Below are positions 53,420-64,000 of a DNA stretch of 64,000 bases, piece by piece. This stretch comes from Methylophaga sp. Lineage in GTDB: Bacteria > Pseudomonadota > Gammaproteobacteria > Nitrosococcales > Methylophagaceae. Position 1 is the first letter of the stretch. Every line of letters starts with the position of its first letter. Position numbers and translations under genes: made by a program. The notes beneath the pieces are model-generated. The model ran no database searches and was not told the origin of the DNA. It worked only from the letters and a program-made list of their open reading frames with translations. Location: positions 310,001 to 374,000 of the forward strand of contig PAJP01000021.1 in NCBI GenBank assembly GCA_002706095.1. Direction: 5' to 3'.

Positions 53420-54052
53420 TTATGTTTTTTCATTGGAAAATGACTGTTTTGCAATAATTTCTTTTGCTAACTCACCTACTGGCATACGTTGTTCCATCGC
53501 CTGTTTTCGCAATAATTTATAGGCTGCTTCAAGACTAATATTTTGTTTTTCACTGATAAAATGCTTGGCGTTTTCAATATGTTGACTGGCATTGAGTTTG
53601 GATTCTAAGTTACGAATCGTCTTGACCATAGAGCGAGTTTGTTTAAACTCTTGCAAACTCAGCAGTAAGTTACTGAGTACACCCAAAGGGTGAAATGGAA
53701 GACCAATAATCGCTTGCGCATTCAAACTTAATGAATATTGCAAAACCAGTGGGTTTTCATAGTCCACCACCAACACTAAAGCGGCCGGTGGGTTGCTGAT
53801 ATCCCAGTGAAAGTCATAATCATTCTCAATGATAGGGGTAAGCCCCAGCATCACGACCTGATAATTGGATGAAAAGTCCTCAGGTGGTGGCCATTCTGTT
53901 TTTAGTGGAAAGCCAATGCGTCGGATCTGTTGTTCGATTTTTTTACGATTCTCACCTTCTGGCATGATCAGCAAGATTTCATGCTGGCGTAAGTTTTTAA
54001 CTAAGGTGGAGAGCTCCAGAGGCTGCTGAACAGCAGTTAAGCGCTTACTCAT
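53420..54052 (-). CDS. ANTAR-domain antiterminator, AmiR type
   Basis: 210 aa RNA-binding regulator. Residues ~20-135 form a receiver-like domain without the canonical phosphorylated Asp pattern, as in AmiR. A coiled coil follows (~135-155, SMVKTIRNLESKLNASQ), and then an ANTAR domain (~155-205, ISLEAAYKLLRKQAMEQRMPVGELAKEII). It overlaps the AmiC-like gene by four bases (ATGA), so sensor and effector are made together. The leader of the divergent urt operon has tandem hairpins and a terminator, its likely RNA target. Confidence 0.9.
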   Translation of the reverse strand: MSKRLTAVQQPLELSTLVKNLRQHEILLIMPEGENRKKIEQQIRRIGFPLKTEWPPPEDFSSNYQVVMLGLTPIIENDYDFHWDISNPPAALVLVVDYENPLVLQYSLSLNAQAIIGLPFHPLGVLSNLLLSLQEFKQTRSMVKTIRNLESKLNASQHIENAKHFISEKQNISLEAAYKLLRKQAMEQRMPVGELAKEIIAKQSFSNEKT

Positions 54053-55200
54053 AACGACTCTCTGCTGGCTGTTTCCAGAGGGCTCGTCGAATATGAGACT
54101 AAGTAGGGATCAGGTTTCAACGCCGTGTCGGAAGTCACTAATATATCGAATTGACCTTCTTGATTGACTCGACCTATGCGTGACCATAAAAAACAATGAT
54201 TATTATCAGGATCAATTTTTACCGGACCCTGTGGTGCCGAATGTCGAATATCGGCTATTTTTTCCATCACCTTATCAGCATGGAATGACTCGGCCAGTTT
54301 GACGGCTTTGATAGCCAGATGTACTTGGAAATAGGCGGCTTCCCAGCACATTGTCGTCACCTCATCCTGACCATAGGTGGCCTTATATTCCTTGACGATT
54401 TCCTGGTTTATCGGGGTTTCAACTGACTGGAAATAAGGCGCGGCGGTGTAGTGTCCAAAACCTGCCTTAATTCCCATCGCCTGAATTTCTGTTTCGGTCG
54501 TTGTCAGGCTGGCAATGGGAATAGGTTTATCGGCATTTAATTCCAGCATGGCTTGATAAAAATACTCGATGCTTTTGCCGACAAAGTTAGAGAAGACAAA
54601 CTCGGGATGTTTTGAGCTGACCCGCCTGGCAACCTCATAGACAGCTTCTTTGTTGGTTTCTAATGGCAGAAACATTTCTGATATGACGTCACCATCTGAT
54701 GTTTCGATGAGTTCACGCATGATGCGGTTAATCTCACGAGGCCAGATATAATCGGAGCCAACCATGCAGACGCGTTTACCGACGTTTTGAAGCATGTATT
54801 GGGCAAGTTGAACACAACCTTGATTTGGTGCCGCACCGGTATAAACGACATTCGGTGCATACTCAAATCCCTCATATTGCGTTGGGTAAAAAAGTAAAAC
54901 ATCGTAACGCCCGATAATCGGTAGCATGGCTTTGCGGCTAGCGGATGTATAGCCCCCGAAGATAAGTTTGACGTTATCTTCAACAATCAGCTTTTGTGCA
55001 AGTGGGCCATAATTTTCTGGAACAGATTGGGGATCAACACAAATAGGATGGAGTTGTTGACCATTGATGCCGCCCTGACGATTGATCCTATCAATTGCCA
55101 GCAGGGTTGCCCTGAGCATGGTCTGTTCTGGATTAGCTGTGACACCTGTCTGAGAAAAAATGACACCAACAGGGATTTCAGCGGGGTACGTATTCGACAT
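54049..55200 (-). CDS. Cytoplasmic urea/amide-sensing binding protein, AmiC type
   Basis: 383 aa type I periplasmic-binding-protein fold. The ATG at 55200 (MSNTYPAEIPVGVIF) has GAGG well placed; there is no signal peptide, so it stays in the cytoplasm. It shares FGGYTSASRKAMLP, LLFYPT-YEG and VYTG--PNQ with UrtA of the divergent operon, indicating a common origin and probably the same or a similar ligand. In the Pseudomonas amidase system AmiC holds AmiR inactive until amide binds. Here the inducer is inferred to be urea or a short amide. Confidence 0.88.
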   Translation of the reverse strand: MSNTYPAEIPVGVIFSQTGVTANPEQTMLRATLLAIDRINRQGGINGQQLHPICVDPQSVPENYGPLAQKLIVEDNVKLIFGGYTSASRKAMLPIIGRYDVLLFYPTQYEGFEYAPNVVYTGAAPNQGCVQLAQYMLQNVGKRVCMVGSDYIWPREINRIMRELIETSDGDVISEMFLPLETNKEAVYEVARRVSSKHPEFVFSNFVGKSIEYFYQAMLELNADKPIPIASLTTTETEIQAMGIKAGFGHYTAAPYFQSVETPINQEIVKEYKATYGQDEVTTMCWEAAYFQVHLAIKAVKLAESFHADKVMEKIADIRHSAPQGPVKIDPDNNHCFLWSRIGRVNQEGQFDILVTSDTALKPDPYLVSYSTSPLETASRESL

Positions 55201-55389
55201 TAAAAACCTCATGTAATACCAGGCATAGAGCCATAAATGTTATTCATTCTGCGTTTTTGCAGAATCTGTACCCAGAATTCGGGTAGATAAACAGCAATTG
55301 ATAATGAGTTTCTAAATGTCTATTTCAGTGGACCATACCGCTTTGTTGTTGTCAATTCGCTTCTGAATATAAAACAAACGATTCGGATG

Positions 55390-55437
55390 ACACGCAAAAA
55401 TGGTGCGATGTTTATGAGCTTTGCACCAAAATTAAAC
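55390..55437 (+). promoter_or_regulatory. Two NtrC-like enhancer sites
   Basis: ACACGCAAAAATGGTGC (55390-55406) and TTGCACCAAAATTAAAC (55421-55437) each contain one strong half of the NtrC site (GCACC-N5-GGTGC). Their centres are about 31 bp apart, three helical turns, and lie about 100-130 bp before the predicted start of transcription. Confidence 0.5.
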
Positions 55438-55501
55438 AATCTTTTTACAAAAATAAAAGTCAATTTTTGTAACTTGTTGTTTATTTTGTGATATTTGTCT
55501 T

Positions 55502-55517
55502 TGGCATAAATTGTGCC
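55502..55517 (+). promoter_or_regulatory. Sigma-54-type promoter of urt operon
   Basis: TGGCATAAATTGTGCC has the -24 TGGCA and -12 GC elements with the exact 10-bp GG-to-GC spacing of RpoN promoters. No good sigma-70 promoter competes. Confidence 0.65.
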
Positions 55518-55555
55518 TAAACCCTAAGTGAGGATTGATAGTTATTCTGCATGAG

Positions 55556-55629: not shown

Positions 55630-55655
55630 TCTCTAAATGTCATGTTATTTTTCGA

Positions 55656-55695
55656 GCGAAAGGGCTCCCTAATTTATTAGGGGGCCCTTTTTGCG
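55656..55695 (+). terminator. Leader terminator before urtA
   Basis: AAAGGGC-T-CCCTAA (55659-55672) pairs with TTAGGG-G-GCCCTTT (55677-55690) around a 4-nt loop, followed by TT. It lies 18 bp before urtA and not after any gene, so it is an attenuator. Confidence 0.85.
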
Positions 55696-55713: not shown

Positions 55714-56946
55714 ATGAAATTACTAAAAAATCTTAAGGCAACTATTGCGGTTGTTGCCTTTAGTTTACCGTTTATCGGGCAAGCGAGTGCGGCCGATGAA
55801 ATTAAAGTGGGCGTACTTTTTTCACTAACGGGTGGCTTGTCTATTGTAGAAAAGTCTCTGTCTGATGCCACCTTAATGGCAATTGATGAAATCAATGCCA
55901 ATGGTGGTGTTGACGGTAAGATGATCAAACCTATCGTAGAAGATGGCGCGAGTGATCCTAAAACATTTAATGAAAAAACAAGCAAACTGGTGATTCGTGA
56001 TCGTGTCGTTACCGTCTTTGGTGGTTACACTTCAGCTAGTCGTAAAGCGATGCTACCTGTTATCGAAAAACGTAAAAACCTATTGTTTTACCCTACTTTT
56101 TACGAAGGATATGAGTGCTCAAAAAATGTCATTTATACCGGCTCTGTTCCTAACCAGCAGTTGAATAATTACATTCCTTATTTGGTTAATAAGTTAGGTA
56201 AGAAGAAGTTCTTCATTGTTGGCTCTAACTACTTATTTCCAAAAGAAATGGCAAAAGTGGCTAAAAAGTTAATTGAAGAGAATGGTGCTGAATGGGTGGC
56301 AGACGAATATCTGGAGTTAGGCCATTCTGAATGGGGCTCAATGGTCAAAAAAATCAAAGACAGCGGTGCTGATGTTGTGCTGTCGAACGTGGTAGGTGAC
56401 TCTGTCATTTCTTTCTATCGTGAATATTTCAACCAGGGTATTTCACAAAAAGATATTCCTATTGCCTCAACTGTGACCTCTGAAATTGAGGTGGCGGCAT
56501 TAGGTGGTAAATATGCTGCCGGTAGTTATACCTCATTCCCTTATTTCCAAGCTATTGATACCAAAGAAAATCACGACTTCATCAAACGTTATCGTGCTTA
56601 TGTTAACGATCCGAATGCTGTCACACACGTCACTATGGTTGCAGCATATGAGAGTGTTTACGAGTGGGCTAAAGCGGTAGAAAAATCGGGTAAAACCAAA
56701 CCACGAGACATCATGGAAGCGGCAAAAGGGGTATCTATAGATGGACCTATGGGCGTGATGACAGTAAGTCCTGAAAACCTTCATAACTCGATGACGCCTC
56801 GTATTGCTCAATGGCAAGAAGATGGTCAGGGCAAAATCGTCGATGAATATGATGTGCCATTACAACCATTACCTTATTCCGCCTACGGTGAAACAGCTGA
56901 CAATCTGTTCTGCACCGTGTCCGGTTTGGACAGTTCTAAATTGTAA
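55714..56946 (+). CDS. urtA: Urea ABC transporter substrate-binding protein
   Basis: 410 aa periplasmic protein. The signal peptide ends at QASAAD (~27). The type I PBP fold has GVLFSLTGGLSIVEKSL, VFGGYTSASRKAMLPV, LLFYPTFYEGYE and YTGSVPNQQ, the UrtA/FmdD signature region that binds urea. A good AAGGGG ribosome site precedes the ATG. First gene of urtABCDE-ureEF-ureAB-ureC, with 63 bp before urtB. Confidence 0.94.
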   Translation: MKLLKNLKATIAVVAFSLPFIGQASAADEIKVGVLFSLTGGLSIVEKSLSDATLMAIDEINANGGVDGKMIKPIVEDGASDPKTFNEKTSKLVIRDRVVTVFGGYTSASRKAMLPVIEKRKNLLFYPTFYEGYECSKNVIYTGSVPNQQLNNYIPYLVNKLGKKKFFIVGSNYLFPKEMAKVAKKLIEENGAEWVADEYLELGHSEWGSMVKKIKDSGADVVLSNVVGDSVISFYREYFNQGISQKDIPIASTVTSEIEVAALGGKYAAGSYTSFPYFQAIDTKENHDFIKRYRAYVNDPNAVTHVTMVAAYESVYEWAKAVEKSGKTKPRDIMEAAKGVSIDGPMGVMTVSPENLHNSMTPRIAQWQEDGQGKIVDEYDVPLQPLPYSAYGETADNLFCTVSGLDSSKL

Positions 56947-62346: not shown

Positions 62347-64000
62347 ATGGCAATAATGAGTCGTAAAGAATATGCAGAAATGTATGGACCAACCACCGGT
62401 GATGGTATTCGCCTTGGTGATACCAATTTAATCGCTGAGGTGGAGTACGATTTCACCGTGTATGGTGATGAGTGCCTTCATGGTGGTGGTAAAACACTGC
62501 GAGATGGCATGGGAATGACCTCAGGGCTGGGAAGTGAAGACGGTACATTAGATATGCTGTTATGTAATGCTCTGGTAATCGATCCTGTCATTGGCATTGT
62601 GAAAGGCGATGTTGGTATTAAAGATGGCAAGATAGTGGGCATTGGTAAAGCCGGTAATCCAGCCACTATGGATGGAGTAGATCACAACTTATTAGTGGGG
62701 CAATCGACCACAGTAAGAGATGCCGAAGGGCTAATTGCCACACCGGGTGGCATTGATGTGCACGTCCATTTTGATAGTGCTCAGTTATGTGACCATGCCA
62801 TTGCTGCAGGCATTACCACCTTGTTCGGTGGATCGTTGGGACCTATCACCGTAGGGATTGATTGTGGCGGGGTATTTAATGTAGGAAAAATGTTACAGGC
62901 GGCCGAAGATTTCCCTGTTAATTTTGGTTTTCTGGGAAGAGGTAACTCATGTAAACCTGAGTCTTTATATGAGCAGATTGAAGGCGGTTGTGTTGGTCTG
63001 AAAATCCATGAAGACTGGGGCGCCATGCCTGCTGTTATTGATACCTGTCTTAATGTCGCTGATGAACTGGACTTTCAGGTTCAAATCCACACCGATACCT
63101 TGAATGAAAGTGGCTTTTTAGAAAATACATTGGCGTCTATTAAAGGGCGAACTATCCATATGTATCACACTGAAGGCGCTGGCGGAGGTCATGCTCCGGA
63201 TATTATTTCTGTTGCAGGTGAGGCCAATTGTTTGCCTTCATCAACTAACCCAACAAATCCGTTTACCCGTAATACGTTTGATGAACATCTGGATATGACT
63301 ATGGTCTGCCATCATCTTAGCCCGGCTATTCCAGAGGATGTCGCCTTTGCCGAAAGTCGGATTCGTGCTCAAACCATTGCTGCTGAAGATATTCTGCATG
63401 ACATTGGCGCCATCTCCATGCTCGGGTCAGATAGTCAGGGAATGGGACGTATTAATGAAGTGATAACCCGAACCTGGCAATTAGCCAGCAAAATGAAAGA
63501 TCAACGCGGCAGGCTGGAGACAGAAAAATCACGTATTGGTGATAACGAACGCATCAAACGCTATATCGCTAAATATACGATTAATGCAGCGAAAAGCTTT
63601 GGTGTGGCTGAGCATATTGGCTCATTGGAACCAGGCAAAATGGCGGATGTTGTTCTTTGGCGACCAGCCATGTTTGGGGTTAAACCTGAAATCATCGTGA
63701 AAGGTGGTTTTATTGCTTATGGTGCAATGGGTGACAGTGCGGCGTCATTAATGACCTGTGAACCAATCATAATGCGTCCTCAATGGGGTGCTTTTGGTGT
63801 TGCCAAACAAAAACTGAGTGCTAATTTTGTGAATCCATTGGCGATTGAAAAAGGATTAGCTGAGAAGCTGGAGTTGAAAAAAACCTTACTGCCGGCCACG
63901 GGGACTCGAAATCTCACCAAAAAAGACATGTTACATAACGATGCCTGTCCTGAGATGTCTGTTGACCCACAGACTTTTGATGTTCATATCAATGGTGAGC
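62347..64000 (+). CDS. ureC: Urease alpha subunit, cut by window end
   Basis: The first 551 residues of the nickel enzyme hydrolysing urea to ammonia and carbamate; about 20 residues are missing. Active-site residues are all present: H139 and H141 (HVH), carbamylated K219 (GLKIHEDW), H248 ([11 protein letters not shown]), H274 ([13 protein letters not shown]), flap C321-H322 (MVCHHL) and D362 (SDSQGMGR). Between residues ~141 and 185 it departs from classical UreC ([15 protein letters not shown]; a shortened [15 protein letters not shown] stretch). It belongs to a divergent urease branch. AGGAGC precedes the ATG. Confidence 0.95.

Follow-up and report, generated by a model that had tools for sequence, protein, structure and literature searches.

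Joint control of one operon by general nitrogen status and by its own substrate is already known from nasFEDCBA of Klebsiella oxytoca, where nitrogen control through NtrA, NtrB and NtrC is combined with antitermination by the ANTAR protein NasR at a leader terminator (PMC5424462, PMC3369936). The inducer of nasF is nitrate or nitrite, which NasR itself detects through its NIT domain. In the amidase operon of Pseudomonas aeruginosa (amiE leader), the sensor AmiC, the ANTAR protein AmiR and a leader with a terminator form a related arrangement (PMC3369936). For urea genes, the accessible part of a study of Pseudomonas stutzeri A1501 reports that an ntrC mutant did not grow on urea, that ureE transcription fell and that a putative NtrC site is present at ureE; attenuation is unmentioned in that part (PMC8443478). 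A 2025 survey predicted sigma-54 promoters for the genes of ANTAR proteins (PMC12316311). Our literature search found no paper on the control of the corresponding operon in Methylophaga.

The DNA at the head of urtA in Methylophaga is very probably a further case of combined Ntr and ANTAR control. Like nasF, it would combine general Ntr control with ANTAR antitermination that responds to the substrate and acts on a terminator in the leader; unlike nasF, it has a separate AmiC-like sensor and AmiR-like protein, its target is urea transport and urease, and its hexaloops are AAAAGC rather than of the A1/G4 type. The sensor, the ANTAR protein and the terminator leader resemble those of the P. aeruginosa amidase operon, whereas in Methylophaga a -24/-12 promoter element precedes the leader. 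To our knowledge, NtrC and sigma-54 do not drive the amidase operon. With the ureE operon of P. stutzeri A1501, as described in the accessible part of that account, the locus would share urea genes placed under NtrC.

Gene context

The window, a 64-kb stretch of Methylophaga DNA, was compared with the relatives M. sulfidovorans, M. aminisulfidivorans and M. muralis. The elements, their spacing, their conservation and the genes were read directly from the sequence and from this comparison. The regulatory stretch is the intergenic DNA between the AmiC-like sensor gene and the divergently oriented urtA, which is followed by urtBCDE and then by the urease genes in one gene string; the sensor and the ANTAR protein are both encoded near the leader (Table 1).

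Table 1. Coordinates of the genes and regulatory features at the head of the urtABCDE-ure operon, numbered from the first nucleotide of the window.
Feature	Position	Strand	Remarks
AmiR-like ANTAR antiterminator protein	53420..54052	-	AmiR_N and ANTAR domains
AmiC-like ligand sensor	54049..55212	-	best solved match P. aeruginosa AmiC (1pea)
NtrC-like element 1	55391..55407	.	centre 55399; right half GGTGC intact
NtrC-like element 2	55422..55438	.	centre 55430; left half TGCACC intact
sigma-54 (-24/-12) element, TGGCATAAATTGTGC	55502..55516	+	predicted start near 55528
hairpin P1, CGC[AAAAGC]GCG hexaloop	55565..55576	+	kept in M. muralis
hairpin P2, CTCC[AAAAGC]GGAG hexaloop	55604..55617	+	M. 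muralis: GGGC[AAAAGC]GCTC
candidate antiterminator hairpin, GAGC[GAAAGG]GCTC	55654..55667	+	overlaps terminator 5' arm
intrinsic terminator, strong	55658..55691	+	just before urtA; near-identical in M. muralis
urtA-like ABC transporter binding protein	55714..56946	+	first gene of the urtABCDE-ure operon

The -24/-12 element and its conservation

An earlier note on this DNA had claimed a TGGCA-N8-TGC element with exact RpoN spacing. The N8 motif is absent at the site, and a search of the window for it returned three unrelated matches only; the real sequence is TGGCA-N7-TGC, that is, GG-N10-GC, which is the canonical -24/-12 spacing, so the spacing claim was right despite the miscount. Against the consensus TGGCAYR-N4-TTGCW, TGGCATAAATTGTGC scores 10/12 in the window strain, and its -12 part is weak (GTGCC instead of TTGCW). 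The bare motif was dropped as evidence for a promoter, since its seven occurrences in the 64-kb window, against 4.1 expected, are not above chance. A match of at least 10/12 within the relevant 50 nt has a chance probability of about 0.004 per species.

M. muralis encodes a UrtA that is 78% identical, and its intergenic DNA has largely diverged. It carries TGGCATACCCTATGC (11/12) at the place matching the -24/-12 element of the window, and both TGGCATA-N5-TGC and the half-site motif GGTGC-N16-GCACC are kept there at nearly the same positions. The GG/GC conservation on which the earlier note had staked its promoter was found in all Methylophaga orthologues, in the form of GG-N10-GC, the diverged M. 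muralis included.

For a wider comparison, 79 loci that encode the sensor or a relative were retrieved, and the 28 in which the sensor gene and a UrtA-like gene are divergently oriented, with a gap of 150-1200 nt between them, were used (three of them from Methylophaga). A sigma-54 match of at least 11/12 pointed towards the transporter in 20 of the 28 loci and in the reverse direction in one, whereas Markov-shuffled gaps averaged 0.19 such loci, with two at most. Outside Methylophaga, 19 of the 25 divergent sensor/antiterminator and ABC-transporter loci had such a site at the position corresponding to that of the element in the window; as several of these loci are closely related, they do not amount to 19 independent cases. 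Typically, the transporter gene begins about 185-225 nt downstream of the site, with start codons estimated by homology. No convincing sigma-54 site was found in the Bradyrhizobium, Aminobacter and Roseivivax-type loci, and since the Bradyrhizobium loci have the same genes, the coupling of sigma-54 to the sensor pair is not universal. Alongside P. stutzeri A1501, the related S. kunmingensis locus has amiCR divergent from ureE, an NtrC palindrome and an A1/G4 hexaloop, with no good sigma-54 match (no GG-N10-GC site reaches 10/12). A wider sample of Gammaproteobacteria added four AmiC-like matches in three genomes, which were uninformative for sigma-54.

It is very improbable, on these data, that sigma-70 drives urtA, that the -24/-12 match is due to chance and that regulation is all attenuation, as at P. 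aeruginosa amiE. The near-chance frequency of TGGCA-N7-TGC in the window and the loci with the same genes but without a sigma-54 site would agree with such a reading, but M. muralis and most of the distant loci retain the element at its place, and the sigma-70 promoter that the earlier note had named as the alternative did not appear: the + strand ahead of the urtA leader yielded no sigma-70 consensus match.

NtrC-like elements upstream of the promoter

The same note had placed two half-site-rich NtrC elements about 31 bp apart at enhancer distance. Read as 17-bp sites, the elements have centres at exactly this spacing. The predicted start lies about 129 and 98 bp downstream of these centres, and the -24 element 103 and 72 bp downstream (105 and 74 bp in M. 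muralis). This geometry agrees with the paired sites on one face of the DNA, about 100-140 bp upstream, that are expected of an NtrC-activated promoter. GGTGC (55402-55406) and GCACC (55423-55427) are present, and each element has only one good half-site. Against the consensus TGCACY-N5-RGTGCA, element 1 scored 7/12 in the window strain, 8/12 in M. aminisulfidivorans and 9/12 in M. muralis, and element 2 scored 8/12 in the window strain and 9/12 in M. muralis. Neither element of the window strain is a full palindrome, unlike the sites at glnA or ntrB.

Weak NtrC-like site pairs 31 bp apart occur six times in the 64 kb. GGTGC-N16-GCACC occurs just once in the window (0.03 expected), with a chance probability of about 5e-5 in 300 nt, and its internal spacing is unchanged in M. 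muralis; the second half-site reads TTTGCACCAAAA in the window and has a counterpart in M. muralis. As a stand-alone NtrC signature the motif was rejected because it is not specific, with 1-7 copies per Methylophaga genome; further analysis covered the copies at urtA. In the distant loci, the NtrC core palindrome GCAC-N7-GTGC was found 60-220 nt upstream in 15 of the 19 non-Methylophaga loci that bear a sigma-54 site (shuffled control: mean 0.29, maximum three). Judged by conservation in M. muralis and in the distant loci, the predicted urtA promoter and its NtrC-like features are clearly beyond chance.

The genome encodes RpoN (TIGR02395, 506 bits, above cut-off) and, just downstream of glnA, NtrBC. 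Pairs of NtrC-like elements with the same 31-bp spacing are found in front of glnA (-92/-61) and of a narX-like gene (-171/-140), and a nirB-like gene has an 11/12 NtrC-like site at -102; the promoters of all three have sigma-54 matches of 10-11/12 (the names narX-like and nirB-like are our reading of the translations). The urtA head therefore has the geometry of the other presumed Ntr promoters of the genome, with individual NtrC-like sites that are weaker than theirs. The nirB-like gene (contig C10, about 479239-479365), with 11/12 for both its sigma-54 and its NtrC-like site, is likely a further Ntr target.

We considered whether a real sigma-54 promoter might be served by an activator other than NtrC, with GGTGC and GCACC as half-sites for that protein. 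The two intact half-sites, 21 bp apart, have an everted arrangement and do not form one NtrC palindrome, and about six other sigma-54 activator-type proteins encoded in the genome could supply the activator. Against this, the half-sites fit the NtrC half-consensus, the glnA and narX-like pairs have the same 31-bp distance between centres, element 1 is nearer to the NtrC consensus in M. muralis, and fuller palindromes stand at the same kind of place in the distant loci, which leaves another activator improbable.

The divergent sensor gene has a weak sigma-70-like promoter match at 55366-55393 (minus strand). Its -35 overlaps NtrC-like element 1, and NtrC could therefore also affect the sensor promoter.

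The leader and its attenuator

The predicted fold of the leader is much more stable than that of shuffled sequence (z -4.64). Neither P1 nor P2 overlaps the terminator, and in M. muralis the stem sequence of P2 has changed while its pairing and loop are kept. The GAGC-N6-GCTC hairpin is the best candidate for the antiterminator; its M. muralis counterpart, GAGC[ATAAGG]GCTC, likewise overlaps the 5' arm of the terminator. Published ANTAR hexaloops need A1 and G4. In the AAAAGC loops of P1 and P2, A1 is present and the G is at position 5 rather than 4, so the leader conforms only partly to the standard ANTAR definition, and an Rfam search gave no ANTAR leader match. An attenuator downstream of the predicted urtA promoter is credible.

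In most distant loci an A1/G4 hexaloop (AAAGGC or AAAGAC, with G4 present) lies about 80-90 nt downstream of the sigma-54 site. The comparison of loci suggests that the pairing of promoter and leader is common in Betaproteobacteria, and combined Ntr and ANTAR control of urea or amide transporters appears to be broadly distributed; we found no description of it. Whether Ntr/sigma-54 and AmiC/AmiR form a conserved module of organic-nitrogen ABC transporters in Gamma- and Betaproteobacteria, with a constrained distance between promoter and hairpin, is evenly balanced in our judgement. Methylophaga would then have a variant leader, with G5 instead of G4 in the hexaloops and a third hexaloop hairpin that overlaps the terminator.

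Probable inducer

Gln144 is essential for urea binding in the UrtA of Prochlorococcus (PMC10392092). The Methylophaga UrtA-like protein reads YPTFYEG at this place, with Phe replacing Gln144, and the AmiC-like sensor reads YPTQYEG. A variant of the proposed control, which does not exclude the rest of it, keeps the promoter as described and makes a short-chain amide or another compound, not urea, the inducer of the leader. The Phe in the UrtA-like protein would suit such a ligand, as would the score of this protein below the UrtA family cut-off (398 vs 492.75) and the better score of the sensor against amide-binding AmiC (283 bits) than against UrtA structures (221 bits). We hold this variant to be rather unlikely: the urease genes stand in the same gene string, UrtB passes its family cut-off, and the Gln at the Gln144-equivalent position of the sensor is absent from P. 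aeruginosa AmiC. Because of the urt-ure operon context and this Gln, and notwithstanding the Phe in UrtA, urea is the likely inducer.

Proposed control of urtABCDE-ure

The claim of the earlier note that nitrogen control is stacked on an attenuator leader is supported, at the level of sequence, by the conserved elements, by rpoN and ntrBC and by the matching 31-bp pairs elsewhere in the genome. Very probably, phosphorylated NtrC and sigma-54 control the initiation of urtABCDE-ure transcription, and AmiC/AmiR-type antitermination controls its elongation. From these features we infer the protein binding, the start site, the ligand and the logic of the two steps as follows. Under nitrogen limitation, phosphorylated NtrC would bind the paired elements (55391-55438) and activate sigma-54 RNA polymerase at the -24/-12 element, with transcription from the predicted start. 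The transcript would begin with a leader bearing the hexaloop hairpins and the intrinsic terminator, at which most transcripts would stop when the inducer is absent. On binding its ligand, probably urea and possibly a short amide, the AmiC-like sensor would free the AmiR-like ANTAR protein, which would bind the hairpins and favour a structure that excludes the terminator, so that readthrough into urtA follows. The sensor, of a urea/amide type, probably releases an RNA brake placed before the urea-uptake genes. Initiation by nitrogen limitation and elongation by inducer would together act as an AND gate.

Such an arrangement would mean that the two-key design of nitrate assimilation (nasF) also serves the uptake of urea or amides in marine methylotrophs. 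It makes the concrete prediction that urea use is gated by nitrogen status and substrate together.

Additional sequence features

The sequence TCTAAATGTC occurs exactly twice in the window, both times on one strand: at 55311-55320, ahead of the NtrC-like elements, and at 55632-55641, within the leader and ahead of the terminator. Two copies appeared in none of 100 shuffles, and both are kept in M. muralis. If a minus-strand amiC transcript spanned the upstream copy, it would be complementary to the one in the leader. Within the urease genes, an antisense Rfam match to the 5' ureB small RNA family (62506-62787, minus strand; 45.4 bits, gathering threshold 40) may only reflect conserved urease coding sequence.

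The amiC strand has a leader hairpin of its own, ATTCTGC-AAAAAC-GCAGAAT (55246-55265, minus strand), and in M. muralis a terminator-like AAGCCC...GGGCTTTTTT lies directly before the sensor gene. These structures hint at possible attenuation of the sensor genes as well.
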